Positions 3,141 through 19,517 of a stretch of 33,886 bases of DNA are shown here, piece by piece (within the stretch, counting starts at the first letter, position 1; each line of letters opens with the position of its first letter). A model generated the notes under the pieces. That model was given only the letters and a program-made list of their open reading frames with translations. It was not told the origin of the DNA and ran no database searches. The stretch comes from Candidatus Sulfotelmatobacter sp. (lineage in GTDB: Bacteria > Eisenbacteria > RBG-16-71-46): NCBI GenBank assembly GCA_035498555.1, contig DATKAB010000130.1:1-33886 (forward strand). The letters run 5' to 3'. A program made the position numbers and the translations under genes.

Positions 3141-4281
3141 TCGATTCGAGCGCGCGGCGGCCGGATCCCGCCCGAACGCTTCCCCTCCCGCCGTCGCTCG
3201 ATTTGCCGGCGGTGATGGATTCGCTGAGCGACGCGATCGTGGTGGTGGATCGCGCCCGCCGCGTGGTGGCCGCGAATCGCCGCTACCTCGAAGTGTTCGG
3301 CGCCGGGCGGGAACACGTCGTCGGCCTGCTGTGCGACGACGCGGTGGCGTGCCCGGAGGCCGCCGCGGGCCAGCTCGGCCGGTGTCCGGCGTGCCGGGCC
3401 CGCGATCTTCGCACGCCGCAGCGTGAAATCCGCGTGCTGCCCGACGCCGGCGGGGGCACGCGCCGCTGGGAGATCACGTTCAATCCCATTCTCGACGCGA
3501 ACGAAGTGACCACCCACGTGGTCGAGGTCTGGCGCGACATCAGCGAGCGGACCGCGCTCGAGGCGCAGCTCTCTCACAGCGAGCGACTGGCGTCGATCGG
3601 CATGCTGGCCGCAGGGGTCGGCCACGAGATCAACAATCCGCTGGCTTCGCTGATGGCGAGTGTCGAGAGCCTCGAGCGGCTGCTCAAGCGCGGGATGTCG
3701 ACGGATGCCGATCGGGCCGAGGCGCTGGAAATCGTCCAGCTCGCCGAACGCGAGGTGACGCGCTGCCGCGAGACCACCGACAAGCTGGTGCTTCTCGCCC
3801 AGCCCTATTCGGTGGCGCCGATCTGGGTGGACTTCAATCGCGCCGTACTCGACACCGCCTCTTTGTTGCGGCACCAGATGAACAAGCAGGGCATCGAATG
3901 GCGTGCCGAGCTCGAAGTCGGGCTCCCCCGCGTGTGGGCGCGGGAGTCCGGCATTCGCGGCGTGTGTCTCAATCTCATGATGAACGCGGTGCAGGCGATG
4001 CCCACGGGAGGAGTGCTCCGCGTTTCCACGCGCCTCGACGGGCGTACTGCCGAGATGCGCGTCGAGGACACCGGGCCGGGCATCCCGCCCGAGCACCTTC
4101 AACGCATCTGGGATCCGTTCTTCACCACCAAACCCGCGGGCCAGGGGACCGGCCTCGGTCTGTTCGTCACGCAATCCATCGTGCACCGCAACGGCGGTAC
4201 GATCCGGGTGGAGAACGTGCCTGGCCGAGGAGCCCGGTTCACACTTCGACTGCCGCTCGACTCGACGGAGGGAAACACCAC

Positions 4282-4285
<4 letters not shown>
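3137..4285 (+). CDS. PAS histidine kinase with cysteine-rich sensor domain (NtrB-like)
   Basis: 382 residues, soluble. A PAS domain (about 22-140) is followed by HisKA (LAAGVGHEINNPL, phospho-acceptor His163) and HATPase_c (NLMMNAVQAM; DTGPGIPP; FFTTKPAGQGTGLGLFV). Inside the PAS core are four cysteines, Cys66-x5-Cys72-x10-Cys83-x2-Cys86, a spacing that could bind Zn or Fe-S or form redox disulfides. That suggests an oxygen or redox input, but the ligand is inference. It overlaps the preceding kinase by 4 bp (ATGA at 3137-3140) and the NtrC-family gene by 4 bp (4282-4285). It is therefore the most likely direct partner of that activator. Confidence 0.92.
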
Positions 4286-5721
<1,436 letters not shown>

Positions 5722-5765: not shown

Positions 5766-5805
5766 GGCGTGGCGTGACGGGCTGTCAGAGTTTCGGCGCC
5801 ACGCC
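5766..5805 (+). promoter_or_regulatory. Candidate enhancer (UAS) inside a 9-bp inverted repeat
   Basis: Perfect 9-bp arms GGCGTGGCG (5766-5774) and CGCCACGCC (5797-5805) flank TGACGGGCTGTCAG (5775-5788), itself a TGAC-n5-GTCA dyad. The inner motif recurs upstream of uspA and hsp20 in the same orientation relative to transcription. It lies 94-107 bp upstream of the -24 GG of the promoter at 5881-5896, a normal distance for an NtrC-type enhancer. It is 54 bp beyond the stop of the NtrC-family gene. A terminator is less likely because the loop is 22 nt and no T-run follows. Confidence 0.6.
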
Positions 5806-5880
5806 CGTATCCGCCCTCACGACCGTTGCGCGGGGCCGTCGCTCGCAAGGGCTTGTCGAGTCGCAGCCTGACGCACGACC

Positions 5881-5896
5881 GGGCACGCGGCTTGCG
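5881..5896 (+). promoter_or_regulatory. Sigma-54 (-24/-12) promoter of the receiver-like gene
   Basis: GGGCACGcggcTTGCG matches the sigma-54 consensus TGGCACGnnnnTTGCW, with GG at 5882-5883 and GC at 5894-5895 separated by exactly 10 bp. Transcription is predicted to start near 5907, giving a leader of about 90 nt before the ATG at 6000. That leader can fold into two hairpins, with arms 5912-5917/5923-5928 and 5932-5939/5964-5971. A TGACnnnnTGnCAG enhancer candidate lies about 100 bp upstream. Confidence 0.72.
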
Positions 5897-5999
5897 GAGC
5901 AGGATCGTCATGGCGAGAGCGGCTCGCCGTCCGCTCGGGCCCGGAAACGGACCCGTGGACGGCCCCGAGCGCTCTCCATTCCAGCCCCGAGAGCGGCCG

Positions 6000-6380
6000 A
6001 TGCCCATGATCATGATCTGCGACCCGCGCCCCCGGCACGACGAAGTGGGTCGTGTCGCGGATACGCTACTCGACCGCGGCTACGGCGTCCGCTCCTTCAG
6101 CGACGGCGAGCGTTTCCTGGAGGCCGCGGTGGCGCAGCCGCCGGATCTGGTGGTGTACGCGCTCGGAGAAGAGCTGGAGTCGGACCTGGGCGTGCTCAAG
6201 CTGCTGCGACGCGCCCTTCCAGACATGCATCTGATCGTGCTTTCGGCGCAGCCGTCGTTGCGAACCCGGACCGCCGTCCAACCACTGCGACCGATCTTCT
6301 ACGCGGTGGATCCGCCCGATCCCGACGAGGTCATCGAGGTCGTGCAGACGGCGCTCGAGCGTCGCGAGCGGCCGAGCTGA
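6000..6380 (+). CDS. Receiver-like protein lacking the phospho-acceptor Asp
   Basis: 126 residues that follow a CheY-like fold pattern: MIMICDPRPRHDEV at beta1, QPPDLVVYALGEEL at beta3, DMHLIVLSAQPSL at beta4 and IFYAVDPPDPDEVIEVVQTAL at beta5-alpha5. The usual Asp at the end of beta3 is Ala, one of the beta1 acidic pair is Cys, and the beta5 Lys is missing. It is therefore a pseudo-receiver with no attached output domain, and phosphorylation is not expected. It could act by protein-protein contact, perhaps titrating or adapting the upstream kinases (inference). The ATG at 6000 gives a full domain; in-frame starts at 6006 and 6012 are possible, and the frame is open upstream to 5826. It converges with the SRPBCC gene with only 5 nt between stops. 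Confidence 0.72.
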   Translation: MPMIMICDPRPRHDEVGRVADTLLDRGYGVRSFSDGERFLEAAVAQPPDLVVYALGEELESDLGVLKLLRRALPDMHLIVLSAQPSLRTRTAVQPLRPIFYAVDPPDPDEVIEVVQTALERRERPS

Positions 6381-6385
6381 GCAAC

Positions 6386-7027
6386 TCAGCGCTCGGAGCG
6401 CTCCTCTTCCCGCGACTCCTCATGGCTCGCGCGCCGCAGCATTTCGACGCGAACCTGGCTCAGGAGGTCGCGGGCCACGTCGCGTAGCATGCCCCGGCAC
6501 ACGGACTTCGGCATCGCCATGTGGGGCTCGGCCTGCAGCTCGTAGTTCACCCGCGTCCCGGTCGAATCGGATGTGATTCGCCACTCGCCCTGATAGTCGC
6601 GGAAGTCCTTGCCGAGCACGTCGCGAAAGGTGATGCGACTCTCGGGAGTCTCGCGGACGTCGAGCAGCACCTGGACGCGATGGTGGAAGATGAAGAAGCT
6701 GCTGATCGCGTCCTGCCGTACCAGCAGGCTGTCGGCGTCGCGGCGCTCGACGTGGCTCTCCTTCATCGAGCTCACGAACTCGTGAATGTGATCGTAGTCG
6801 GTGAGCACCTGCCAGGCGACCGTCGAGGAGGCCGCCACCCGGAAGCTGCCGGCGACGTGGCACCCGGGACCGACGCTGCCGACGGCCACCGACGGCTCAT
6901 CGGCGCGGGCCGCGAAGGCCAGTGCCAGGGGGAGGATCAGCACAGGCAAGAGGCGGGCGCGATTTCTCGCGCCCGCCCTCCTGTTCCTTCCGGCTTCTTG
7001 CTCATAGCGGTCGGGGCGGATCCGCAT
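6386..7027 (-). CDS. Exported SRPBCC/START-like (COQ10-type) lipid-binding domain protein
   Basis: 213 residues. A basic N-terminus and hydrophobic stretch (LLPVLILPLALAFAARADEP) suggest a signal peptide or anchor. The remainder (about 50-195) resembles the polyketide-cyclase/START-like SRPBCC fold: SSTVAWQVLTDYDHIHEFVSSM, then TFRDVLGKDFRDYQGEWRI and VNYELQAEPHM. Such domains bind hydrophobic ligands such as quinones or lipids. The C-terminus is rich in Glu and Arg. It is the last gene of the uspA-yceI-porin operon, 16 nt after the porin stop. The upstream Shine-Dalgarno is weak, so the start at 7027 is the longest reasonable choice. The ligand is unknown. Confidence 0.75.
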   Translation of the reverse strand: MRIRPDRYEQEAGRNRRAGARNRARLLPVLILPLALAFAARADEPSVAVGSVGPGCHVAGSFRVAASSTVAWQVLTDYDHIHEFVSSMKESHVERRDADSLLVRQDAISSFFIFHHRVQVLLDVRETPESRITFRDVLGKDFRDYQGEWRITSDSTGTRVNYELQAEPHMAMPKSVCRGMLRDVARDLLSQVRVEMLRRASHEESREEERSER

Positions 7028-7043
7028 CGTGGGTCTCGCGCTG

Positions 7044-8438
7044 CTAGAAGGACACTCCGGCCTCGACCATCACGCCCTTGAACTGCCCGCCGTTGTGGAT
7101 ATCGCTCACCGGGTAGTCCTTGTAGTCCTGCTGAACGTACTCGATCTTGGCCAGCATGTTCTGGGTCAGGAACCAGCCGCCGCCAACCTCGGTGCGGTCC
7201 ACGGTCACGTCCTGCGTGAAGGCGGCGCCAGCCGGGCGACCCTTGACGATGTCGTAGCGCCCGCCGACGTAGAACTGATTCTTGAGGAACCGGTAAATGC
7301 CTTCCACCGCGTTCTGGGTGAACTTGCGGTCCGAGGTCTCGGTGGACTTGCGGCCGTTCGACTGCTCGACGTTGCCGAACAGCTCGAGACCCTGATACTT
7401 GATGAAGGGGTTGACCACCCACGCGGTGACCTTGTCGGACTGGCCGGGCTGGATGTCGCCCGACCACGCGTTGGCACTCTCGGTGGCGTTCACGTTCTCG
7501 AGCACGAAGTAGTAGCGCGACCCCGCCCGGCTACCGCTGTAGAGCGTGTTGCTCTGCGAGCTGTTGGTCGTGTAGATCGAGCCGGTGATGCGCACCCGGG
7601 CCGCCGGGTTCAGCTGCTTGTCGTAGCCGAGCTTGCCAATGAAGCTGGGCGAGCGCGCGTCGGGAGTGGTGACCAGACCGTGCACTTCGCCGCCGGTCAC
7701 CGCGACCATTCCGAAGGCGTCCTTGGCGTGGACGTAGGCTTCGCCGCCGATCTCGGTGGTGAAGGCGTCCATGATGAGATTGCCGACGAACGGATTGAAT
7801 ATCGTCTGGCCGTTGTCACTGCGCCGGAAATGCATGTCGCCATAGTTGATCTCGAAGTGCCCCAGCCTCAGGGTCAGGTACTTCATGATGTTGTCGAGCG
7901 TCTCGTTCTCCCACGGAGAGCCGTCGATCAACAGATAGCCGTCCTTGACCCAGGTCTCGTTGTGGTGACGCGAACTGAGGTACATGGTCAACGCCATCCG
8001 AATGCCGCGACCCAGCTGCGTGTCGATGTAGAGATTGGCGTCGGCGTTGTTGAAGCCGGGCCCGATGTCGATGAGCTTGTTCAGGTTCACGCCGCCGACG
8101 ACGTTCGGGGCGGCGGTGTTCTCGTGAGTGAGATCCTGGAACTGCTGGGTGAACGCGCCGCCGATCTGGAGCTGGAACCCGGTGTAGGGAACTGTCGAGG
8201 TTTTTGGCGGTTCGAACACGTTCAGCCCGCGGGCGTCATGCGGACGGAAATTGTCGATCACGATGATCTGTGGCTTGGCGCGCGGAAGCTCGGGAGGCGC
8301 CGCCGGGTTGGTGGCGGTTGAATCCCCCTCGGCCGCGAACGCAGCTCCGGCCAGCAGGAGGGCCATCCACGTCGCCAACGCCGCCACTCGCGCGAAACGG
8401 CGGGCACTGGGGCGAGCACTCAGGTCGTTCGTGTGCAT
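7044..8438 (-). CDS. Outer-membrane beta-barrel (porin-like) protein
   Basis: 464 residues with a signal peptide (ARVAALATWMALLLAGAAFAAEG). The rest consists of alternating amphipathic strands rich in Tyr, Asn and Gly (FQLQIGGAFTQQF; LTLRLGHFEINYGDMHFRRSDNG; QFYVGGRYDIVKG; MLAKIEYVQQDYKDY), and it ends in MVEAGVSF with a terminal Phe, as barrels recognised by the BAM machinery do. I do not recognise a named porin family. The ATG at 8438 has AAGGGG about 7 nt upstream and lies 13 nt after the yceI stop, so the two are co-transcribed. Together with UspA and the YceI-like protein it suggests envelope remodelling under the sigma-54 promoter at 9646-9661. Confidence 0.82.
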   Translation of the reverse strand: MHTNDLSARPSARRFARVAALATWMALLLAGAAFAAEGDSTATNPAAPPELPRAKPQIIVIDNFRPHDARGLNVFEPPKTSTVPYTGFQLQIGGAFTQQFQDLTHENTAAPNVVGGVNLNKLIDIGPGFNNADANLYIDTQLGRGIRMALTMYLSSRHHNETWVKDGYLLIDGSPWENETLDNIMKYLTLRLGHFEINYGDMHFRRSDNGQTIFNPFVGNLIMDAFTTEIGGEAYVHAKDAFGMVAVTGGEVHGLVTTPDARSPSFIGKLGYDKQLNPAARVRITGSIYTTNSSQSNTLYSGSRAGSRYYFVLENVNATESANAWSGDIQPGQSDKVTAWVVNPFIKYQGLELFGNVEQSNGRKSTETSDRKFTQNAVEGIYRFLKNQFYVGGRYDIVKGRPAGAAFTQDVTVDRTEVGGGWFLTQNMLAKIEYVQQDYKDYPVSDIHNGGQFKGVMVEAGVSF

Positions 8439-8451
8439 GACGTTCCCCTTT

Positions 8452-9141
8452 CTAATTGACTCGGGTGGGAAGCGACGCGCTGCCGTCACCCTTGGGTACC
8501 AGAAGCAGCTTGTAGCGAACCACGATTCGATCGGCGACCTTGAGGGCGCCGAGCATCATCGCGGGCGGATGGATACCGAACTCGCTCATGAGCAGCGGCT
8601 CGCTGCCCTCGAGCCAGACGCCTTCGGATGCGCGGAAGGCGCGGGCCTCGAGCGTGTCCGGTCGCTGGACCCCGGCCACTTCGAGCGTGCCTTCCGCGCG
8701 GATCTGCATCGTGTCGCCGGGAACTCCCGCCGGCGAGACGACATAGTGCGTGAGGTGAAACTTGACCGACGGATACTGCTCGGCCTTCAAATCCTTCCAG
8801 AGGTTCTTGTCGAGCCCCGACTTCTCGGACTTGAGGCTGGTGACCGGAACGTCCAGATCCACCGAGCGGATGGAGCCGCCGCGGATCAGGCTCTCGAGCC
8901 CGGCGACGTCGGCGGGCGAAGTCGAGGCCGGATCGCGGGTCAGGCTGAGCGTGGAACTCGAAGTGCGGCTCTCGAAATCATGGAGCGTCGACTTGCCTTC
9001 GAGCCACAGCGAGCTGCCCGCTCCCATCGTGATCGGAACTGGCGTGGCGGTGTCGGCGGCCAGCGAGCGAATCACCGTTGCGGCCGCCAGCAACGCGGCC
9101 ATCATCAGCATGGCGAGCGCGAACCTGCGTCCGGCGCTCAC
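8452..9141 (-). CDS. YceI-like periplasmic lipocalin-fold protein
   Basis: 229 residues, with an N-terminal hydrophobic segment (ALAMLMMAALLAAATVIRSLAA) for export or anchoring. The body has YceI-family features: SLWLEGKSTLHDFESRT, VDLDVPVTSLKSEKSGLDKNLWKDLKAEQYPSVKFHL, and a final hydrophobic strand. YceI-fold proteins bind long isoprenoids or lipids in the periplasm. The chosen GTG start at 9141 overlaps the uspA stop (GTGA, 9138-9141), which explains the start and implies translational coupling. A downstream ATG at the hydrophobic segment would be too short for a signal peptide. Confidence 0.85.
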   Translation of the reverse strand: MSAGRRFALAMLMMAALLAAATVIRSLAADTATPVPITMGAGSSLWLEGKSTLHDFESRTSSSTLSLTRDPASTSPADVAGLESLIRGGSIRSVDLDVPVTSLKSEKSGLDKNLWKDLKAEQYPSVKFHLTHYVVSPAGVPGDTMQIRAEGTLEVAGVQRPDTLEARAFRASEGVWLEGSEPLLMSEFGIHPPAMMLGALKVADRIVVRYKLLLVPKGDGSASLPTRVN

Positions 9142-9605
9142 GACGGCACCTTCGGGTTCTTGGCGCCGTTGGCCAGCTTCACCACCAGCACGCTGCACGG
9201 CGCATGAGTCACCACGTGGCTCGCCACGCTCCCCAGCAGCAACTTGGTGAAGCCGGTGCGCCCGTGCGAACCGAGCACCACCAGGTCCACACCATGTTCG
9301 CGCACCGCGTCCACGATGGCTTCACGCGGATCGCCTTGCGCGACCAGGGCCCGGCTCTTGAAGCCGTGGTCCCGGAGCTGCCGCTCGAAACGAGCGCTGA
9401 TCTCCTGGTGATGCTTCACTTCCTCTTCGTAGATTTCGGCCGGGAAGCCCATCGCCGGTGCCTCGGCGACGGCGTAGGACGCGACGATCGGGCGCGCCGC
9501 CGACAGCACGAGGAATTCGGTGCGGGCCGGCCACGTCATGCTCTTGGCCCAGTCCATCGCGGCCTGCGAGTAGGCCGAGTCGTCCACTGCGATCAGGATC
9601 TTCAT
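9138..9605 (-). CDS. Universal stress protein, UspA family (ATP-binding type)
   Basis: 155 residues, a single Usp domain: MKILIAVDDSAYSQAAMDWA at beta1, DLVVLGSHGRTGFTKLLLGSVASHVVTHAPCSVLVV at the nucleotide loop. The latter fits the G-x2-G-x9-G-S pattern of ATP-binding Usps. Family members support survival under starvation or hypoxia. The ATG at 9605 has a strong AGGAGG (9611-9616). It is the first gene of a four-gene operon (uspA-yceI-porin-SRPBCC) and is served by the sigma-54 promoter at 9646-9661. It lies directly downstream of the MgtA-like ATPase on the same strand but has its own promoter. Confidence 0.94.
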   Translation of the reverse strand: MKILIAVDDSAYSQAAMDWAKSMTWPARTEFLVLSAARPIVASYAVAEAPAMGFPAEIYEEEVKHHQEISARFERQLRDHGFKSRALVAQGDPREAIVDAVREHGVDLVVLGSHGRTGFTKLLLGSVASHVVTHAPCSVLVVKLANGAKNPKVPS

Positions 9606-9617
9606 GGCTTCCTCCTT

Positions 9618-9632
9618 CGCCCCAAAGGGGTG
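9618..9632 (-). other. Short hairpin at the predicted 5' end of the uspA mRNA
   Basis: CCCC (9620-9623), AAA, GGGG (9627-9630), extended by one G-T and one C-G pair. It sits between the predicted start site near 9635 and the AGGAGG at 9611-9616, so the transcript would begin almost inside the hairpin. Such 5'-terminal stems can protect mRNA from decay; that role is inference. Confidence 0.4.
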
Positions 9633-9645
9633 CGAAATCGGACAG

Positions 9646-9661
9646 GGCAACGCTCGTGCCA
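9646..9661 (-). promoter_or_regulatory. Sigma-54 (-24/-12) promoter of the uspA operon
   Basis: On the minus strand TGGCACGagcgTTGCC matches the sigma-54 consensus at every defined position of TGGCACGnnnnTTGC. The -12 GC is at 9648-9647, so transcription should start near 9635, 30 nt before the uspA ATG. Two enhancer candidates lie at 9772-9806, about 112-146 bp upstream of the -24 GG. Confidence 0.85.
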
Positions 9662-9771
9662 TCGGCGGGCGCAGTCACGCAAGATGCGGTGTTCCCGTGA
9701 ATTGAATGCGCGTTCCGGCGCAACCACCCCTCGCTCGGACCGGCGGCGCCCCTCCGGCGCTCGGCCCGCTC

Positions 9772-9806
9772 CCGCCACTCTGTCAGGCGCCGCTGCCAGC
9801 GTGTCA
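9772..9806 (-). promoter_or_regulatory. Tandem candidate enhancer sites (UAS) for the uspA promoter
   Basis: Read on the minus strand: TGACACGCTGGCAG (9806-9793) and TGACAGAGTGGCGG (9785-9772). Both fit TGACnnnnTGnC(A/G)G and are 21 bp apart start to start, about two helical turns, as expected for cooperative activator dimers. The outer copy contains the stop codon of the MgtA-like ATPase (9804-9806), so coding and regulatory sequence overlap. Confidence 0.6.
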
Positions 9807-12386
9807 CGCCGCCGATTCGGCGCGATGCGATGGCGCGGGGATGGCGGGGCGCGTCCGATAGAAGGGGATCTTGGCGAGCTCTGCCGAAACCACGTAGGCG
9901 AGTGCGATCGCGACCAGCATCCCGACCAGCGGCAACGGAAGGGGCACGAAACCCATCAGGCCGGCGAACGGCAGGTAGGGGAGCGCGAACGCCAGCGGGA
10001 TCAACGCCACCGTCGCCCAGAACAGGAACGGCCCGGGGAGGCTGCGGAAGAAGGGGCGCCGCGTCCTCACCACCAGCGCCACCAGCAGCTCGGTGAGCAG
10101 CGATTCGACGAACCAGCCGGTGCGGAAGGTGGCGGGCGGGGCGTGGAAGATGCCCAGCAGTGCGCCGAACGTGACGAAGTCGAAGACCGAGCTGAGCACT
10201 CCGAACACCAGCATGAACCGCCCGATGAACAGGATGTTCCAGCGTTCCGGCTTCTCGACCATCTCGGGATCCACACGATCCTCGGCCAGCCCCAGCGCCG
10301 GCACGTCGGCGAGGAAATTGTTGAGCAGGATCTGGCTCGCCAGCAGCGGCAGGAAGGGGAGGAACAACGAAGCCAGCGCCATGCTCAGCATGTTGCCGAG
10401 ATTGGCGCTGGTGGTGGTGAGGATGTACTTCATGCTGTTGGCGAAGGTGCGCCGGCCCTCCTCGATGCCCCGCCGGATCACGTCGAGATCGCGCTCGAGC
10501 AGCACGAAGTCGGCGGCCTCGCGGGCCACGTCGACCGCCTGATCCACCGACAGGCTGGTGTCGGCGGCATGCATCGCCGGCGCGTCGTTGACCCCGTCGC
10601 CGAGGAACCCGACCACGTGGCCCGAATGGCGGAGCGCGCGGATCACCCGCTCCTTCTGGGTCGGATCCACCTCGACGAACAATCGGGCCCGCTCCACTTC
10701 CCGGGGAAGCGCTTCGTCGCTGATGTCATCGAGCTCCGCTCCGCTGAGGAGTCCCCCCTCCGTGAGACCGACCTGATCCGCGACCTGCCGGGCCACCAGG
10801 CGGTTGTCGCCGGTGATGATCTTGACCGACACGCCGAGCCGGGCGAGATCGGCGAGCGCGCCGGCCACGCCGGGCTTGGGCCGGTCGCTGAAGGTCACGA
10901 ATCCTTCGAAGGTGAGATCGCGCTCGTCGTCGCGCGAGTAGCTCGCGCGCTCCGGGAGATCGCGGCTGGCGATGCCCAGCACGCGGATCCCGCGCGCGCC
11001 CCATTCGTCGAAGCGCCGCTCCAGTTCGGCGCGCCGCGCGCCGTCGAGAGCCGTGCCGCCGGGGAGCGAAGAGCAGATCGCGAGCAGCGGCTCGAACGCG
11101 CCCTTGGTCACGAGTCGCACGCCTTGCGCCTCGCGAACCACCACGCTGACCCTGCGACGCACGAAGTCGAACGGGATCTCGGCGAGCTTCTGGACCGCCG
11201 GAGCCGGCTTGCAGGCCGCGACGATTGCGTCGTCGAGCGGGCTGCCGATCCCGGTCTCGAGCGCGGCGTTGCAGCCGGCGAGGTCCAGCACCGACGTCAG
11301 GGTCTCCCCGTCGGGTCCGTAACTGCCCTCCAGTCGCACCACGCCCTCGGTCAGCGTGCCGGTCTTGTCGGTGCAGAGCACGTCCATGCTCCCCAGGTTC
11401 TCGATCGCCTGGAGTCTTCGCACCAGGACGCCGGCCGTGGCCATCTGTGACGCGCCCCGCGCCAGATTGATGCTCAGGATCGCCGGCAGCAGCTCGGGCG
11501 AAAGGCCCACCGCCAGCGCCACCGAGAACAGCAGCGTCTCGATCGGCGGCCGGCCGCGCAGCACGTGGATCACGAACACCGCGAGGGTCATGACCACCAT
11601 CACGCTGGTGAGGAGATACCCAAAGCGCAGGATGCCGCGATCGAACTCGGTCTCGGTCGGGCGCGTACGCAGCCGCCGCGCGATCGCGCCGTACTGGGTG
11701 CCGAGCCCCGTCGACACGACCAGGAATCGCGCCGTTCCGCTCCGGACGTTGGTGCCGAGGAACACGCAATTGCTGCGGGCCCCGAGCGGTGCGCCGGCCT
11801 CGACGACGCCCGGCTGTTTCTGGATCGGGAAGCTCTCGCCGGTGAGCGCGGCCTCGTTGACGTGGAAATCGGTGGCCTCGATCAGCACGCCGTCAGCCGG
11901 GACCAGACTGCCCGCCGACAGCAGCACCACGTCGCCGGGGACCACCTCGGCCACGGGAATCCGCACCGCGCCGCCGTCCCGGAGCGCGGTGACGAGAGTC
12001 TGCACGCGCGCCTCGAGCGCCGCCGCGGCGCGGTAAGCGCCGATCTCGCGCGCCGCGCCCAGGCTCACGGTGAGCGCCACGATCACCAGCACGATGATCG
12101 ATTCGATCCAGGAACCGGTCAGCGCCGAAGCCGCCGAGGCGAACAGCAGCACCAGCAGCAGAGGGTTGGAGAACTGGCGCAGCAGCACCCCCAGCGGCGT
12201 GCGCCGGTCCCGGCGGCGCGTTTCGTTGCGCCCGTAGCGCCTGAGCCGATCGGCCGCTTCAGTCGACGACAGGCCGTTCGTGTCCGAGCCCATTTTCAGG
12301 AGGAGGTCGGCGGCCGGGGCAGACCAGTAGGGGGCCGATCCGTCCGTTCGGCGATCAGCGCGGTCGTTCGCGTTCGAGCGCGACAT
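9804..12386 (-). CDS. P-type cation-transporting ATPase, MgtA-like
   Basis: 860 residues, close to MgtA/MgtB length. Cation-ATPase N-terminal domain (about 25-95), actuator motif ALTGESFPIQK, M4 region VALAVGLSPELLPAILSINLARGA as in magnesium-type P-ATPases, phosphorylation motif CTDKTGTLTEG with Asp340, hinge GFLGDGVNDAPAM, and C-terminal membrane helices. By family it would import Mg2+ or a similar cation using ATP; substrate specificity is not proven. The ATG at 12386 lacks a Shine-Dalgarno but has TACCTT 6 nt before it, so the mRNA may be leaderless. It is divergent from the DUF6920-like gene 48 bp away. Related ATPases often sit with UspA and Hsp20 genes in energy-stress clusters. Confidence 0.9.
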   Translation of the reverse strand: MSRSNANDRADRRTDGSAPYWSAPAADLLLKMGSDTNGLSSTEAADRLRRYGRNETRRRDRRTPLGVLLRQFSNPLLLVLLFASAASALTGSWIESIIVLVIVALTVSLGAAREIGAYRAAAALEARVQTLVTALRDGGAVRIPVAEVVPGDVVLLSAGSLVPADGVLIEATDFHVNEAALTGESFPIQKQPGVVEAGAPLGARSNCVFLGTNVRSGTARFLVVSTGLGTQYGAIARRLRTRPTETEFDRGILRFGYLLTSVMVVMTLAVFVIHVLRGRPPIETLLFSVALAVGLSPELLPAILSINLARGASQMATAGVLVRRLQAIENLGSMDVLCTDKTGTLTEGVVRLEGSYGPDGETLTSVLDLAGCNAALETGIGSPLDDAIVAACKPAPAVQKLAEIPFDFVRRRVSVVVREAQGVRLVTKGAFEPLLAICSSLPGGTALDGARRAELERRFDEWGARGIRVLGIASRDLPERASYSRDDERDLTFEGFVTFSDRPKPGVAGALADLARLGVSVKIITGDNRLVARQVADQVGLTEGGLLSGAELDDISDEALPREVERARLFVEVDPTQKERVIRALRHSGHVVGFLGDGVNDAPAMHAADTSLSVDQAVDVAREAADFVLLERDLDVIRRGIEEGRRTFANSMKYILTTTSANLGNMLSMALASLFLPFLPLLASQILLNNFLADVPALGLAEDRVDPEMVEKPERWNILFIGRFMLVFGVLSSVFDFVTFGALLGIFHAPPATFRTGWFVESLLTELLVALVVRTRRPFFRSLPGPFLFWATVALIPLAFALPYLPFAGLMGFVPLPLPLVGMLVAIALAYVVSAELAKIPFYRTRPAIPAPSHRAESAA

Positions 12387-12392
12387 GGCGCA

Positions 12393-12398
12393 AAGGTA
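12393..12398 (-). promoter_or_regulatory. -10 element for possible leaderless mgtA-like transcript
   Basis: TACCTT on the minus strand ends 6 nt before the ATG at 12386. A weak -35 match ACGACA lies 17 nt upstream. No ribosome binding site is present between the two. Confidence 0.42.
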
Positions 12399-12420
12399 GT
12401 GCAATTCCTGGCCGCTGTCG

Positions 12421-12426
12421 TACATT
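12421..12426 (+). promoter_or_regulatory. -10 element for possible leaderless DUF6920-like transcript
   Basis: TACATT ends 8 nt before the ATG at 12435, and no Shine-Dalgarno is present in the gap (CCCGACCG). The predicted transcription start coincides with the start codon. No good -35 is visible. Confidence 0.42.
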
Positions 12427-12434
12427 CCCGACCG

Positions 12435-13280
12435 ATGCTGATGCCGATCGTGATCGTGGTCCTGGTGCTGGTCGCGCTGCTCGGCGCCGGTGCGCTGGCC
12501 GCGCAGTGGTGGAACGCCGAGTCCAATCGCACCATGGCGCGGCTCACCAGGGCCATGCCGCGCGCCGCCGCGCGCACTCTTCAACCCGGCGACCTCGACG
12601 CGCTGCCGAGACCGGTGGCCCGCTATCTCCGCGAGCGTCTTCCGCCGAACCAGCGCCTGATCCGGCGCGCGCAGATCTGGACCCGCGGTGAATTCCTGAT
12701 CCGGCCCGGCCCCTCGGGCTGGCGGAGGTTCCGCGCCAAACAGCTCTTCACCTGGCAGCCGGCGGGATACGTCTGGGACGCGCGCATTCGCATGCTGCCC
12801 GGCCTCGACATCTTCGTGCGGGATGCTCTGGTGGCCGGCGAAGGCTCGATTCGGGCCGCGGTCGCCGGGCTGGTGCCACTGGTCTCCTCGCGCGGCTCGC
12901 CGGGCCTCGCCGCCGGCGCGTCGCACCGATTCCTGGCCGAGGCGCTGTGGTTCCCGACCGCGCTGGTGCTGAACCCGATCCTGCGCTGGGTGCCCATCGA
13001 TGACGACAAGGCCCGCGTCACGCTCGAGCAGGGCGCGACCACCGTGGCTCTCGAATATCGCTTCGGCCCGGACGGCCTTCCCGTCAGCGTGTTCGCCCCG
13101 GATCGCTTCCGCGAACAGGGGGGCCGGGGCGTCCCGACTCCCTGGCAGGTCCGCTTCCTGCGTCACGAAATCCGCGGCGGCATGATGATTCCGGTCTCGG
13201 CAGTGGTCGAATGGCTGCTGCCGAGCGGTCCGCTCGCCTACTGGCGCGGCACGGTCGGCGAGGTGCGTTACGAATTCTGA
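12435..13280 (+). CDS. DUF6920/DUF6544-like membrane-anchored protein
   Basis: 281 residues. One N-terminal transmembrane helix (PIVIVVLVLVALLGAGALAAQWW) is followed by a soluble domain with features I associate with the DUF6544/DUF6920 family: ALPRPVARYLRERLP, GYVWDARIRMLPGLDIFVRDALV, RFLAEALWFPTALVL, WVPIDDDKARVTLEQG and PLAYWRGTVGEVRYEF. The family has no firm function. The family name is from memory and needs a profile search. It is divergent from the MgtA-like gene (48 bp) and followed after 31 bp by an MFS transporter on the same strand. Confidence 0.72.
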   Translation: MLMPIVIVVLVLVALLGAGALAAQWWNAESNRTMARLTRAMPRAAARTLQPGDLDALPRPVARYLRERLPPNQRLIRRAQIWTRGEFLIRPGPSGWRRFRAKQLFTWQPAGYVWDARIRMLPGLDIFVRDALVAGEGSIRAAVAGLVPLVSSRGSPGLAAGASHRFLAEALWFPTALVLNPILRWVPIDDDKARVTLEQGATTVALEYRFGPDGLPVSVFAPDRFREQGGRGVPTPWQVRFLRHEIRGGMMIPVSAVVEWLLPSGPLAYWRGTVGEVRYEF

Positions 13281-13311
13281 GCGCGGAGTCGTCACCCGCT
13301 ATCACGCGCTG

Positions 13312-14571
13312 GTGCTGCTGGTGGCGTGGATGGGCTGGGTGTTCGACTCGATGGACTCGACGCTCTACGTGCTGGTGCTGACCCCGGCGCTGAAGGGTCT
13401 GCTGGGAAGTGGCGCCACCGAGGCCGCGATCGCGCAGCACGGCGGCTGGATCCTCTCGATCTTCCTGATCGGCTGGGCGGCGGGCGGCGTGCTGTTCGGC
13501 GTGCTGGCCGATCGCATCGGACGCACGCGCGCCCTGGTGTGGACGATTCTCATCTACGCCACGTTCACGGGACTCGCGGCCGTCTCCCGCACCTGGTGGC
13601 AGCTCGCCGCGTTCCGCTTTCTCACCGCGCTCGGAGTCGGCGGCGAGTGGGCGGCGGGAGCGGCGCTGGTCGCGGAGGTGTGGCCCGGTCGCAAGCGCGC
13701 CACGGCCGCGGGGATTCTCCAGTCCGCCTGGGCGGTGGGAGTGTTCGTCGCCGCCCTGGTCAACTACTTCGTCGGGCCGTTCAGCTGGCGAGCGGTGTTC
13801 CTGGTCGGCGTCGCTCCGGCCCTGCTGGCGCTGGTGATTCGCCGCAACGTCCGCGAGCCGGAGCTGTGGTCGGCGGCGATCGCCGGCGGGGTTGCGCGCG
13901 GGAGCGCCGGGTCTCGATCCGGCGAAGGCGCCGCCGCGCCGCGGCTCGCCTCGCTGCGCGAGCTGTTCCGACCCGAGTTCCGCCGCACGACCTGGATTGG
14001 ATTCGCGCTCGCCTTCGCGGCGGTGTTCGGGCTGTGGGGCGTCACCTACTGGACTCCGGTACTGCTCCGGCACTTGCCGGATACCGCCCGGATCGGTGAA
14101 GCCGCCACCGTGCATCGGGTGAGCGTCGCCGTGATGGTGCTGAACGCCGGCTCGCTGGCCGGCTACCTGGTGTTCGCGCCGCTGGCCGGCGCGCTCGGCC
14201 GCCGCTGGACGTTCGCACTCTACTACCTGGGCGCGCTGATATCGGTCCCGCTCACTTTCGCGCCCGGAAGAACCTACCAGGCGACGCTCGCGTTGCTGCC
14301 CGTGCTCGGATTCTTCACCAATGGAGTGTTCACCGGCTTCGCGATCTACCTGCCCGAGCTCTATCCCACGCGGCTGCGCGCCACCGGCTCGGGCTTCTGC
14401 TTCAACGCGGCGCGGGTCTTCGCCGCCACCGGGCCGTTCCTCACCGGAACCCTGGTGGGACTGTTCGGATCGTTCAACCGGGCGGTTACGGCGGTCGGAA
14501 CGATCTACCTTCTCGGGCTGATCGTCTTGCCGTTGGCGCGCGAAACTCGAGGCCACGACCTTCCCGCCTGA
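13312..14571 (+). CDS. Major facilitator superfamily transporter
   Basis: About 419 residues with roughly 12 hydrophobic segments, typical of MFS carriers. The loop 2-3 signature GVLADRIGRTRALVW and the N-terminal stretch AWMGWVFDSMDSTLYVLVLTPAL resemble the sugar/organic-acid MFS group. GGEWAAGAALVAEVWP and LPELYPTRLRATGSGFCFN are characteristic of metabolite symporters. The substrate is not predictable. The start is uncertain. GTG 13312 has no properly spaced Shine-Dalgarno, and the frame upstream (TRYHAL) looks like the normal N-terminus of this family, yet no ATG, GTG or TTG occurs between the in-frame stop at about 13183 and 13312. A non-standard start or a sequence error is possible. 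Confidence 0.85.
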   Translation: MLLVAWMGWVFDSMDSTLYVLVLTPALKGLLGSGATEAAIAQHGGWILSIFLIGWAAGGVLFGVLADRIGRTRALVWTILIYATFTGLAAVSRTWWQLAAFRFLTALGVGGEWAAGAALVAEVWPGRKRATAAGILQSAWAVGVFVAALVNYFVGPFSWRAVFLVGVAPALLALVIRRNVREPELWSAAIAGGVARGSAGSRSGEGAAAPRLASLRELFRPEFRRTTWIGFALAFAAVFGLWGVTYWTPVLLRHLPDTARIGEAATVHRVSVAVMVLNAGSLAGYLVFAPLAGALGRRWTFALYYLGALISVPLTFAPGRTYQATLALLPVLGFFTNGVFTGFAIYLPELYPTRLRATGSGFCFNAARVFAATGPFLTGTLVGLFGSFNRAVTAVGTIYLLGLIVLPLARETRGHDLPA

Positions 14572-14591
14572 GTGACAAATCCGGCCTTCCC

Positions 14592-14605
14592 TGACGGAAT
14601 GACAG
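14592..14605 (+). promoter_or_regulatory. Candidate enhancer (UAS) for hsp20
   Basis: TGACGGAATGACAG fits TGACnnnnTGnCAG. It shares 11 of 14 bases with the site at 5775-5788 and has the same orientation relative to the gene it would serve. It lies about 119-132 bp upstream of the -24 GG of the promoter at 14723-14738. A further TGAC occurs at 14573, 19 bp upstream, but its downstream half is not conserved. Confidence 0.58.
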
Positions 14606-14722: not shown

Positions 14723-14738
14723 TGGCACGCGCTCTGCA
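14723..14738 (+). promoter_or_regulatory. Sigma-54 (-24/-12) promoter of hsp20
   Basis: TGGCACGcgctCTGCA matches TGGCACGnnnnTTGCA at all but one defined base. GG at 14724-14725 and GC at 14736-14737 are 10 bp apart. The predicted start near 14749 leaves a leader of about 94 nt before the hsp20 ATG. Confidence 0.8.
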
Positions 14739-14842: not shown

Positions 14843-15277
14843 ATGAAGGCGACTCTGGTGCCCACCACGGGAGCTCGGTGGCTCCGCAATGAGATGGATC
14901 GGCTGTTCGATCGGGTGTGGGACGGGGATGAATTCTCGACCATGGGGGAGTGGGCGCCGCGTATGGATGTGTCCGAGACCCCGGATGCGCTGACGGCGCG
15001 CATCGAGATCCCGGGAATCGAGCCCAAGGACGTTCAGGTGCTGATCGAGCACGACGTCCTCACCGTCAAAGGCGAGAAGCACGAGGAAGCCGAGCAGAAG
15101 AGCGAGAAGTACTTGAGGCTCGAGCGCGGCTACGGGGCCTTCACGAGGAGCGTGCGGCTGCCGGCTCCGGTCGAGGCGAACAAGGTGGTGGCGACGTTCA
15201 AGAACGGACTGCTCGTGATCACGATGCCCAAGGCCGCCGAGGCCAAGGGGGTCACGGTCCCGATCAAGCTGACCTGA
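14843..15277 (+). CDS. Small heat shock protein, Hsp20 / alpha-crystallin family
   Basis: 144 residues. The N-terminal arm (MKATLVPTTGARWLRNEMDRLFDRVW) precedes an alpha-crystallin domain (about 38-135): RMDVSETPDALTARIEIPGI, VLTVKGEKHEE and FKNGLLVITMPKA, the last being the A-x-x-x-n-G-v-L family signature. The tail VTVPIKLT carries an I-x-L/V-like motif. It is an ATP-independent holdase chaperone in the cytoplasm. The ATG has GGGAGG at 14832-14837. A sigma-54 promoter rather than a heat-shock promoter lies upstream, linking it to the two-component system at 1.6-5.7 kb. Confidence 0.94.
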   Translation: MKATLVPTTGARWLRNEMDRLFDRVWDGDEFSTMGEWAPRMDVSETPDALTARIEIPGIEPKDVQVLIEHDVLTVKGEKHEEAEQKSEKYLRLERGYGAFTRSVRLPAPVEANKVVATFKNGLLVITMPKAAEAKGVTVPIKLT

Positions 15278-15416
15278 CGTTCGCGAACGCATCGTGACGT
15301 CCGCCGGTGCCGGTGCTCCGCGAGGAGGCCGGCGGCCGCGCCACGACGAGGGCTCCGCGGGGATCATCGCCGCGGGGCCCTCACCCGATCCGGAGCAGGA
15401 ACTCTCGAGAGCGAGG

Positions 15417-15422
15417 TACGAT
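15417..15422 (+). promoter_or_regulatory. -10 element for possible leaderless fdhB transcript
   Basis: TACGAT ends 7 nt before the ATG at 15430. GAGCGAGG further upstream is too far (13 nt) to be a good ribosome binding site. No convincing -35 is visible, and read-through from hsp20 (152 bp upstream) is an alternative. Confidence 0.38.
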
Positions 15423-15429
15423 TCCCTCC

Positions 15430-16917
15430 ATGCCCACGCCCAGGTCGGAACCGCTGATTCTCGCCCGGGCCCGCCGGCTGGCCGGAGGGGCCGCCAGCGG
15501 GAACGCCATCGGCGACCTCATGAGGGGGAGTGGCGACGATGAAGTCGCCGCAAAGCGCGGGCTCCCGCTCGCCACCGTCGAGGGCATTCGAAGCGGTTAC
15601 GACCTGATCGCGCCGGGGCCGCGCTACTGCGACGGGACCAGCTGCCACTTCGCCGGCGCGGCCGAAGTGCGCTCGCGTCATCCCCATCTCGACGCCGCCT
15701 CGGCGGTGCGCTGTCTCGGACATTGTTACGAGCCGCCGGCATTCCAGGTGCAGGGCCGCGTGTACGCCGGAGCGGAGGGCTGGGAGGCGGGCGAGATTCC
15801 GCGCCGGTCTCTCGCCGAATCGCCGGTCGTCTTACGACATCTCGTCGCAGGCGCGGCGCCCGCGGACTTCTCCGAGTACGATCTGCCGCCGGGCGCGGAA
15901 ATCCTGGCCGCGCTCGAGCAATCGCATCTTCGCGGACGCGGCGGCGCTTCCTTCCCGACTGCGGCCAAATGGCGCACCGCGCGCGACACCGCGGCCGAGC
16001 GGCGCTACGTGGTCGCGAACGGCGACGAGGGAGATCCCGGCTCGTTCGTGGACCGCCTGCTGATGGAGGAGGACCCGCACGCGATCCTGGCGGGGATGGC
16101 GGCGTGCGCGAAGGTCATCGGCGCCACCCATGGCATCGTCTACGTGCGCGGGGAGTACCCGCGAGCCCAGGCCTCGATTCGCGCCGCCATCGAGGCGGCG
16201 CGCGCGGCGGATCGCCTGGGGCGCGGATTCGACATCGAGGTGATCTCGGGCGCCGGCTCCTACGTCTGCGGCGAAGAGACCGCGCTGCTCCGCTCGATCG
16301 CGGGCCTGCGCGGCGAGGCGCAGCCCAAGCCGCCCTATCCGGCCGAAGCCGGGCTGCACGGCTTCCCGACCGTGGTGCAGAACGTCGAAACCCTGGCGAT
16401 CGTGCCATGGGCCGCGCGCCAGCGACGGCCGAGCGGGACGAAGGCCATGAGCCTCTCGGGCGCGATCCGTCATCCCGGGGTCGTCGAGGTTCCGCTCGGC
16501 ACGCCGCTCCGCCGCGTGCTCACCCAGGCCGGCGGCGGTCCGCCGGCCGATCGCGGCTGGCGCATGGCGCTGATCGGCGGTCCGCTCGGACGCGTGGTTC
16601 CCGAACGGGATTTCGACGTCCCGCTGTCCTATGAAGGCTTGCCGGGCCTCGGGCATGCCGGCATCGTGGTGCTGGACGAGGGCGTGAGCCCTCGCGCACT
16701 GGCCGAGCACCTGTTCGAATTCGCGCGGCTCGAATCCTGCGGCGCGTGCGCCCCGTGCCGCATCGGCGCCGCGCGACTCGCGGGACTCCGGGACGCGGGC
16801 TCGATGCGGAGGTTGCTCGAGACCCTCGAGATGGGAAGCCTGTGCGGCTTCGGCCAGAGCGTTCCGCGGCCGATTCGCGATCTGCTCGAGCACTTCGGCG
16901 ACCAGGTGTTCGCATGA
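15430..16917 (+). CDS. NAD-dependent formate dehydrogenase beta subunit (NuoE-NuoF fusion)
   Basis: 495 residues. A NuoE-like thioredoxin-fold [2Fe-2S] domain carries Cys67-x4-Cys72 and Cys95-x3-Cys99. It is fused to a NuoF-like domain with RGRGGASFPTAAKW and NGDEGDPGSFVDR for FMN/NADH, GSYVCGEETAL, and the [4Fe-4S] motif ESCGACAPCR (Cys437, 440, 443) with Cys472 in SLCGFGQ. It passes electrons from the alpha subunit to NAD+ in the cytoplasm. The ATG at 15430 is the first start giving the complete NuoE domain; the frame is open further upstream but not conserved-looking. The stop overlaps fdhA by 4 bp. The last cysteine is only 29 residues after Cys443, shorter than in typical NuoF. Confidence 0.9.
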   Translation: MPTPRSEPLILARARRLAGGAASGNAIGDLMRGSGDDEVAAKRGLPLATVEGIRSGYDLIAPGPRYCDGTSCHFAGAAEVRSRHPHLDAASAVRCLGHCYEPPAFQVQGRVYAGAEGWEAGEIPRRSLAESPVVLRHLVAGAAPADFSEYDLPPGAEILAALEQSHLRGRGGASFPTAAKWRTARDTAAERRYVVANGDEGDPGSFVDRLLMEEDPHAILAGMAACAKVIGATHGIVYVRGEYPRAQASIRAAIEAARAADRLGRGFDIEVISGAGSYVCGEETALLRSIAGLRGEAQPKPPYPAEAGLHGFPTVVQNVETLAIVPWAARQRRPSGTKAMSLSGAIRHPGVVEVPLGTPLRRVLTQAGGGPPADRGWRMALIGGPLGRVVPERDFDVPLSYEGLPGLGHAGIVVLDEGVSPRALAEHLFEFARLESCGACAPCRIGAARLAGLRDAGSMRRLLETLEMGSLCGFGQSVPRPIRDLLEHFGDQVFA

Positions 16918-19517
16918 TGCGCATCGACGGGATCGCGGTCGAGCCGAAGGGAACGGTGCTCGAGGCCTGTCGCGCGGCCGGGATCCCGCTCGCCGCCTTC
17001 TGCTGGAACGAGAAGCTGAGAAGCGGCGGCCACTGCCGGGCCTGCCTGGTCGAGATGGACGGCCGCTTCATGGCCGCGTGCACCACGCCGTCACGCGAAG
17101 GAGCCTCGATCGCGACGCGCAGCGCACGCCTCGAGGCCTACCGGCGCGATCTCGGCGAGCTGATCGTGGCGGCATCGAAGCCCGGGGGCCGGGTCGGCGA
17201 GACCCTGCGCGAGTGGGGGGTGCGCGGCGATCGCTACGCCGCCGACGGATCGCCGCCGCGACGCGACGAGACTCACCCCTACCTGCGCATCGATCTCTCC
17301 GCCTGCATCCTGTGCCGGGCCTGCGTGCGAGCCTGCGAGGAAATCCAGGGCCAGTTCGTCTACGCGGTAAGGGGTCGCGGCGCGGAGGCTTCGCTCACCT
17401 GGACGCCGGAGCGCTTTGGCGCGAGCGATTGCGTCTCGTGCGGCGCCTGCCTCGGCGCCTGTCCCACCGAGGCGATCTCCAGCGTCGATCTCGAGCGCGT
17501 GCGCACTGCGCCGACTCCGATCCAGACCAGGCGCACCACCTGCGGCTACTGCGGCGTCGGCTGCGGCCTCGAAGTCCAGGTCGCGGGCGACCGCGTGGTG
17601 CGCATCGAGGGCGCCGACTCACCGGTCAACCGCGGCCACCTGTGCGTGAAGGGCCGCTTCGCGCACGGCTTCTCGCGTCACCCGGACCGGCTGCGCACGC
17701 CGCTGGTGCGTCGCGGCGGCCGGCTGGTGGAGGCGGGCTGGGACGAGGCGGTCGGGCTGGTGGCCCGCGAGCTCTCGCGCTTCCGAGGCGCGGTCGCCGG
17801 ACTCTCGTCCTCGCGCTGCACCAACGAGGAGAATTATCTCTTCCAGAAATGGCTGCGCGCCGGGCTCGGCACGAATGACGTGGACTGCTGCGCGCGGGTC
17901 TGCCATGCGCCGTCGGCGGCCGGGATGCGCGTGGCGTTCGGGACCGGCGCCGCGACCAATTCGCTCGCCGACATCGACCGCGCCGACCTGCTGCTGGTGG
18001 TGGGGGCCAATCCCACCGAGGCGCACCCGGTGACCGGTGCGCGCCTGCGGCGGGCGGCGCTCGAGGGCTCGCGCCTGATCGTGGTGGATCCTCGCCGCAC
18101 CGAGCTGGCCGAGATCGCGGACCTCCATTTGCAGCTCCGGCCCGGCACCAACGTGCCGCTCCTCAACGCGCTGGCGCGCGTGCTGGTCGAAGAAGACCTG
18201 GTGGATCACGATTTCCTCGCCGCGCGCGCCGAAGGGTGGAAGGAATTCCGGGCGTTCGCGCTCGCGACAAGCCTCGAGTGGGCGGCGGGGATTACCGGTG
18301 TGCCGGCGGGGAGGATTCGCGAAGCGGCCCATCTCTACGCCCGCGCACGACGCCCGATGGCGCTGCACGGCCTGGGCGTCACCGAGCATCTGCAGGGAAG
18401 CGAGGCGGTGATGCTGCTGTGCAATCTCGCGCTGCTCCGGGGCGCGATCGGGCGCGAAGGCGTTGGAATCAATCCGTTGCGTGGCCAGAACAACGTGCAG
18501 GGCTCGGCCGACATGGGCTGCCAGCCGGACTTCCTGCCCGGATATCAGAGTGTCGAGGATCCCGAGATGCGCGAGAAGTTCGGCCGAGTTTGGGGCCGGC
18601 CAGTGCCCGAGCGTCCCGGCCGCACCATCCCGCGCATGTACGGTGCGGCCCTCGATCGCGAGATCCGCGCCATGGTCATCCTCGGCGAGGACGTGGCACA
18701 GACCGATCCCGACACCGGCCAGGTGCGCGCCGCGCTGTCCGCTCTCGACTTTCTCGTGGTTCAGGAGCTGTTCCCGTCAGAGACCGCGAAGCTCGCGCAC
18801 GTGGTGCTGCCGGGCGCGAGCTTCCTCGAGAAGGACGGAACCTTCACCAACGGCGAACGCCGCATCCAGCGCGTGCGCATGGCCCTTCCGCCGGTCGCCG
18901 GGGCGCGCCCCGACTGGCAGGTGCTGCTGGAGCTGATGAACGCGACCGGACTGCCTCAGAGCTTCACGAGTCCGGCCGAGATCATGGCCGAGATCGCGGG
19001 CTTGACGCCGATCTATGCCGGCGTCCGCTACCACCGGCTCGATGGCGAGGGACTCCAGTGGCCGGTCCCATCGCTCGATCACCCCGGCACCCCGATTCTG
19101 CACCGGGAAGAATTCACCCGCGGTCGCGGTCGCTTGTCGCGCGTCACGTACCTGCCGTCGCCTCAGCTGCGCGACGGCCTCACCCTGGTGACGGGCCGCC
19201 GGCTCGTTCATTACAACGCCGGCACCATGACGCGCCGGACCCCCGATCTCGAGCTGGTCCCGGAAGAGCGGCTGGACATGAACCCCGACGATGCCGCGGA
19301 TCGGGGGATCGGTGACGGTGCGAGGGTCTCGGTGGCCAGTGATTCGGGCGAGATCGAGGTCCGGGCGCGACTCTCGCCCGGGCTCCAGCGCGGCACGGTG
19401 TTCCTGAGCTTCCATTTCCCGGAATGCGAGACCAATCGGCTCACCAGCACGGTGACGGATCGGTTCACCGATTGCCCCGAATACAAGATCACCGCGGTCG
19501 AGGTGCGACCGCGGTGA
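16914..19517 (+). CDS. NAD-dependent formate dehydrogenase alpha (catalytic) subunit
   Basis: 867 residues, molybdopterin-dependent (Mo or W). Order: plant-type [2Fe-2S] ferredoxin domain (about 22-60, GGHCRACLVEMD); two [4Fe-4S] motifs (CILCRACVRACEE; CVSCGACLGACP); the molybdopterin Fe4S4 motif (CGYCGVGCGLEV); then the catalytic core with CCARVCHAPS, where Cys330 takes the place of the metal-ligating Sec of E. coli FdhF. NPLRGQNNVQGSADMG and the C-terminal dinucleotide-binding domain (VTGRRLVHYNAGTMTRRTP) follow. It oxidises formate to CO2 with the beta subunit, or could run in reverse. The [4Fe-4S] region with His and three Cys usual in NuoG-like chains is absent at about residues 82-105. 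No fdhD/fdsD is next to it. Confidence 0.93.
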   Translation: MMRIDGIAVEPKGTVLEACRAAGIPLAAFCWNEKLRSGGHCRACLVEMDGRFMAACTTPSREGASIATRSARLEAYRRDLGELIVAASKPGGRVGETLREWGVRGDRYAADGSPPRRDETHPYLRIDLSACILCRACVRACEEIQGQFVYAVRGRGAEASLTWTPERFGASDCVSCGACLGACPTEAISSVDLERVRTAPTPIQTRRTTCGYCGVGCGLEVQVAGDRVVRIEGADSPVNRGHLCVKGRFAHGFSRHPDRLRTPLVRRGGRLVEAGWDEAVGLVARELSRFRGAVAGLSSSRCTNEENYLFQKWLRAGLGTNDVDCCARVCHAPSAAGMRVAFGTGAATNSLADIDRADLLLVVGANPTEAHPVTGARLRRAALEGSRLIVVDPRRTELAEIADLHLQLRPGTNVPLLNALARVLVEEDLVDHDFLAARAEGWKEFRAFALATSLEWAAGITGVPAGRIREAAHLYARARRPMALHGLGVTEHLQGSEAVMLLCNLALLRGAIGREGVGINPLRGQNNVQGSADMGCQPDFLPGYQSVEDPEMREKFGRVWGRPVPERPGRTIPRMYGAALDREIRAMVILGEDVAQTDPDTGQVRAALSALDFLVVQELFPSETAKLAHVVLPGASFLEKDGTFTNGERRIQRVRMALPPVAGARPDWQVLLELMNATGLPQSFTSPAEIMAEIAGLTPIYAGVRYHRLDGEGLQWPVPSLDHPGTPILHREEFTRGRGRLSRVTYLPSPQLRDGLTLVTGRRLVHYNAGTMTRRTPDLELVPEERLDMNPDDAADRGIGDGARVSVASDSGEIEVRARLSPGLQRGTVFLSFHFPECETNRLTSTVTDRFTDCPEYKITAVEVRPR

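Follow-up and report, generated by a model that had tools for sequence, protein, structure and literature searches.

The activator locus and its promoters

The window analyzed here, a stretch of 33,886 nucleotides from a Candidatus Sulfotelmatobacter sp. contig, codes near its start for two histidine kinases and an NtrC-type activator. The two kinase genes overlap and precede the activator gene; the first codes for a hybrid histidine kinase with a PAS-HisKA-HATPase-receiver architecture (1611-3140, plus strand), and the second (3137-4285, plus strand) overlaps the activator gene (4282-5721, plus strand). The PAS region of the second kinase has four conserved cysteines in the pattern C-x6-C ... 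C-x2-C, kept in most orthologs, and these could form a metal or Fe-S redox sensor. We note that a truncated acyl-CoA ligase of the ADP-forming type (Succ_CoA_lig, Ligase_CoA_2, and ATP-grasp_5) lies just upstream of the kinases, at 1-1614.

NtrC-type bacterial enhancer-binding proteins are recognized by a receiver, a sigma-54 AAA+ domain with a GAFTGA loop, and a Fis-type helix-turn-helix (HTH), and the activator has the corresponding Pfam domains (Response_reg, Sigma54_activat, and HTH_8). Its sigma-54 contact loop reads GAYTDA, versus GAYTGA in most orthologs. Thirteen other genomes of the phylum carry orthologs with 65 to 76% identity; G078, which belongs to another phylum, and G022 carry relatives with 50 to 52% identity. 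The HTH region, GHRxxAAxILGISERNLYRKL, is nearly invariant among the orthologs, and the HTH domain of the activator spans approximately residues 415 to 469. Each genome encodes many similar activators, and within the own genome no other HTH exceeds 55% identity to that of the activator. The ortholog in G006 (C59:48062-49435; loci L068 and L097) has two in-frame stops within the match, reflecting either an assembly error or decay.

Three sigma-54 promoters lie in the window, each with GG and GC dinucleotides 10 bp apart within a TGGCACG-N4-TTGC element, and four copies of a dyad-like motif lie upstream of them, at the positions given in the earlier note. There are three exact matches to TGACNNNNTGNCAG (a pattern also written TGACnnnnTGnCAG) and one near match, all intergenic and all co-oriented with their promoters. 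The first, GTGACGGGCTGTCAG (5775-5788, plus strand, exact; 5774-5788 as the refined 15-mer), is directly behind the activator gene, an autoregulatory position, and is followed by the promoter GGGCACGCGGCTTGC (5881-5895, plus strand, one mismatch) and a gene for a small receiver-fold protein (6006-6380, plus strand, with an ATG at 6000 or 6006). Two sites, the distal TGACACGCTGGCAG (9806-9793, exact) and the proximal TGACAGAGTGGCGG (9785-9772, one mismatch), precede the promoter TGGCACGAGCGTTGC (9661-9647, no mismatches) on the minus strand. This promoter serves uspA (9138-9605), the first gene of a minus-strand run continuing through a YceI-domain gene (8452-9141), a gene at 7044-8438, and a polyketide-cyclase-like gene (6386-7027). 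The fourth site, TGACGGAATGACAG (14592-14605, plus strand, exact), lies ahead of the promoter TGGCACGCGCTCTGC (14723-14737, plus strand, one mismatch) and hsp20 (14843-15277, plus strand), with formate-dehydrogenase-like genes (15307-16917 and 16914-19517) closely behind. From the end of the motif to the -24 box there are 92 bp at the first promoter, 131 and 110 bp at the uspA pair, and 117 bp at hsp20. The distal site at uspA shares bases with the stop codon of the cation-ATPase gene lying upstream (9804-13295, minus strand).

Anatomy of the refined motif

Comparison of 47 genomes of the phylum yields a longer consensus, CTGACAGnCTGgCAG, a 15-bp imperfect palindrome (CTGaCAG-n-CTGtCAG) whose relative entropy is 19 bits. 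Several of its columns are independent of how the sites were selected and are conserved nonetheless, including C at -1 (32/38), A at +4 (26/38), and G at +5 (26/38); C at +7 is a further column of this kind. The earlier note described the core as an imperfect TGAC-n5-GTCA dyad; the true consensus extends further.

The two halves of the motif are unequal: the left half-site has its central A in 50 of 62 sites and the right has the matching T in only 17. With an orientation-neutral matrix, 45 of these 62 sites are oriented as in the window, 9 are reversed, and 8 are symmetric; the orientation labels come from a matrix trained on co-oriented sites, and the associated p value of 7e-7 is therefore optimistic. 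Sites had previously been described as always co-oriented, which is true of the window and holds across the 62 sites as a strong preference (45:9), not as a rule. Of 11 promoters served by two sites, 8 have starts separated by 20 to 21 bp, as with the 21 bp noted earlier between the two uspA copies, and the remainder have 28, 31, or 8 bp. The gap to the -24 box peaks at 75 to 125 bp in a set that includes loci partly chosen by spacing. Upstream activating sequences are dyad symmetric, often in phased tandem, and placed roughly 80 to 200 bp upstream of the start, and the sites have this layout in their symmetry, phased pairs, and distance from the promoter. Placement ahead of sigma-54 promoters and conservation across genomes favor the predicted role of the motif as an enhancer, as the earlier note had proposed.

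Distribution of the motif in the host genome

The motif as first described has only nine fixed positions and was derived from three regions, and the arrangement in the window was said to be hard to get by chance. This does not stand for the window alone, since at least nine shared columns arise in 82 of 150 random triplets of 150-bp window pieces, about half of the draws, and the window by itself is therefore not significant. Counts in the whole 3.8-Mb genome show no excess either, with 16 matches to the exact motif and 16 to the reversed motif, and are thus uninformative on their own.

The placement of the matches is different. Nine of the 16 exact matches are intergenic, versus 1 of the 15 readable reversed-motif controls. 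A co-oriented sigma-54 element follows 7 of the 16 at a distance of 51 to 192 bp, a count that includes three of the sites in the earlier note and one element, TAGCACGGCTCTTGC on contig C119, admitted under a one-mismatch rule and not by score; no strong element follows any of the 15 readable controls. Outside the window there are three co-oriented pairs of motif and one-mismatch element, where about 0.02 would be expected. A genome-wide scan for enrichment near sigma-54 promoters had been put forward at the outset as a way to refute the motif, and enrichment is what the scan returned. The significance of the motif rests on the placement of its matches and on conservation in relatives, not on the window or on counts.

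Co-occurrence of the motif and the activator

The motif follows the activator across the phylum. At 15 loci picked by the activator, without reference to the motif, 27 motif matches lie before a sigma-54 element and 1 lies after one; the corresponding numbers for the reversed motif at these loci are 4 and 2. We also searched the phylum with the refined motif and checked each retrieved place for a sigma-54 element 40 to 160 bp downstream. In genomes with an activator ortholog, a group counted to include G017 and one site in G011, which belongs to the same genus and in which no ortholog was found, a sigma-54 promoter is present at 29 of 43 motif places; in genomes without an ortholog, G020 aside, it is present at 0 of 18 (Fisher p 4e-7, or 9e-6 with unretrieved places counted as failures). 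G017 was considered as a motif-bearing genome lacking the activator and rejected as such, because its contig breaks off within the activator gene. Where an ortholog is present, about a third of the motif places still lack a recognizable sigma-54 element at the set spacing. We note that related loci are partly dependent on one another and that the genomes are draft, MAG-like assemblies.

The exception, G020, has two motif-promoter pairs at two motif places (L179 and L194), preceding a Rieske protein and a 2-oxoacid:ferredoxin oxidoreductase, and lacks a clear ortholog of the activator; the best-matching HTH there has 49% identity and reads GIGLRTLYRK. Beyond the phylum, the single genome-wide match to TGACAnnnTGnCAG in G078 is directly behind the relative of the activator and precedes a promoter-like element, AGGCACGATTTTTGT, with a weak -12 region, and then a receiver-like gene. 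Among the matches listed for 80 loci of more distant activators, retrieved by a contig scan with the activator alignment and matched through a common ELFGHEKG stretch, motif and promoter occur together at one locus, with a mismatched core. The Fis-type HTH of the adjacent activator, suggested earlier as a natural binder, is a good candidate for that role given the co-occurrence, the sites behind the ortholog genes, and the near-invariant recognition-helix region.

Predicted regulon and the receiver-like protein

Three motif-promoter pairs of the own genome lie outside the window and precede citrate synthase (C119), the cbb3 oxidase CcoNO (C184), and a zinc-ribbon protein that follows a ribonucleotide reductase (C73); the CcoNO site is accompanied by two additional near-copies. 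Several targets recur in relatives: Hsp20 in the own genome, G015, G017, and G030; UspA in the own genome, G006, and G030; CcoNO in the own genome and G011 (loci L058 and L177); and citrate synthase in the own genome and G033. At most ortholog loci, the receiver-like gene that follows the activator is a target as well. Further targets in relatives are 2-oxoacid:ferredoxin oxidoreductase, the Rieske protein, multiheme c-type cytochromes, OsmC, an ABC1 kinase, and alanine dehydrogenase/transhydrogenase, together with the gene of a Crp-type regulator in G035. The citrate synthase motif of G033 and the alanine dehydrogenase motif of G002 have no good promoter element at the set spacing, and these assignments are weaker for that reason. 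By gene content, we infer that the regulon adjusts the cell to a limited supply of electron acceptor. Textbook hypoxia control is that by Fnr and FixLJ.

The product of 6006-6380 has a predicted receiver-domain fold (pLDDT 92) with many receiver matches in the PDB, has no Pfam match, and lacks the phospho-acceptor aspartate. Its gene is conserved behind the activator at L097, L098, L099, L101, L102, L104, L105, L107, L108, and L111, and the protein may act as a feedback partner for this activator. A broader reading would join an undescribed sigma-54 oxygen or redox regulon that predates the phylum, a polar enhancer, with its strict CTGACAG half pointing away from the promoter at most sites, and a receiver-fold feedback protein that has lost its phosphorylation site and is made from the regulon's own promoter; we regard this combination as speculative and rather unlikely in its entirety.

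Proposed mechanism and alternatives

Judged from sequence comparisons, CTGACAGnCTGgCAG is very probably the enhancer of the activator at 4282-5721, read by it to drive a sigma-54 stress and respiration regulon. The motif, CTGACAGnCTG(g/t/a)CAG, would be the upstream activating sequence of this NtrC-type protein. One or both of the kinases encoded just before the activator would phosphorylate it, probably in response to oxygen or redox limitation, and the phosphorylated protein would bind either a single site or a pair spaced by about 20 bp. The bound activator would then loop the DNA and open sigma-54 polymerase at a -24/-12 promoter about 75 to 125 bp downstream. The regulon would combine redox and respiratory adjustment with protein protection, and its members in the own genome would be UspA, Hsp20 with the formate-dehydrogenase-like genes, the cbb3 oxidase, citrate synthase, the zinc-ribbon protein, and the receiver-like protein.

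The enhancer could be genuine and have another binder, either a different NtrC-type protein or several paralogs, with the neighboring gene only a member of the regulon. The motif-promoter pairs of G020 and the abundance of similar activators in each genome speak for this. However, none of the 18 motif places in the other genomes that lack the ortholog has a promoter, the site is immediately behind the activator across phyla, and no other HTH of the own genome is more than 55% identical, whereas the orthologs keep GISERNLYRK; we consider a different binder improbable. Still less probable is that the repeats are sites of a non-sigma-54 coregulator, such as a Crp/Fnr-like or PhoB-like protein, acting at the same promoters. 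The half-site CTGaCAG does resemble the CTGTCAT repeat of the Escherichia coli PhoB box (PMC3333781), and the Crp-type gene of G035 is itself a target, but PhoB boxes consist of direct repeats separated by 4 bp and adjoin sigma-70 promoters, whereas the motif here is a 15-bp dyad 75 to 125 bp from -24/-12 elements, and its phylogenetic tie is to the activator.

A chance likeness in GC-rich intergenic DNA, assembled post hoc from three regions, would agree with the insignificance of the window and with genome counts equal to those of the control. This explanation is refuted at the level of sequence statistics by the controlled positional enrichment and the conservation across genomes, and we give it the least credence of all.

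Comparison with known systems

The literature searched, coverage of which was incomplete, did not contain the motif; the motif and regulon are new and of an already known kind, a sigma-54 enhancer with an NtrC-type activator. Two described sites were compared with it and judged to be different. One is the PhoB box, with its direct repeats at sigma-70 promoters. The other is the DVU2894/FlrA-type site, yGTCA-N6-TGACr, found before sigma-54 promoters in Desulfovibrio and Vibrio (PMC4641369), which is likewise a dyad with GTCA and TGAC half-sites but has them in the opposite order and belongs to a regulator of the flagellar cascade. In gene content there is a likeness to the low-oxygen-activated (lxa) locus of Burkholderia cenocepacia, where low oxygen induces cytochrome c, a heat-shock protein, and several universal stress proteins; in the part of that account available (PMC6127331), the Crp-type BCAM0049 is the suspected controller and no sigma-54 enhancer is reported.

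The nearest described system is NmpRSTU of Myxococcus xanthus, in which the NtrC-like, autoregulated NmpR acts at sigma-54 promoters with paired dyad sites and, when oxygen is limiting, turns on the cbb3 oxidase and a universal stress protein (PMC11841059). The present system, set beside NmpR by its published description, may by analogy work in the same way, as it shares the targets uspA and ccoNO and a site behind the activator's own gene. The DNA sites differ, with CTGACAGnCTGgCAG and starts 20 to 21 bp apart here versus a proven GCGCA-N5-TGCGC for NmpR with sites mostly 14 to 15 bp apart (PMC11841059). An NmpR site at the window promoters was rejected, as GCGCA-N5-TGCGC within one mismatch occurs only away from the three promoters. 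The protoglobin kinase NmpU and the receiver-kinase NmpS have no counterpart beside the window activator, which is instead adjoined by PAS kinases in which no globin domain was found.

A previously orphan two-component activator from uncultured bacteria would thereby gain a regulon with a readable DNA code, and the promoters that it likely controls can now be listed from any genome of this group, with targets that point to respiration under a limited electron acceptor. Taken with NmpR, this suggests that sigma-54 hypoxia activators governing universal stress proteins, Hsp20, and cbb3 oxidase recur across distant phyla while using different DNA sites.
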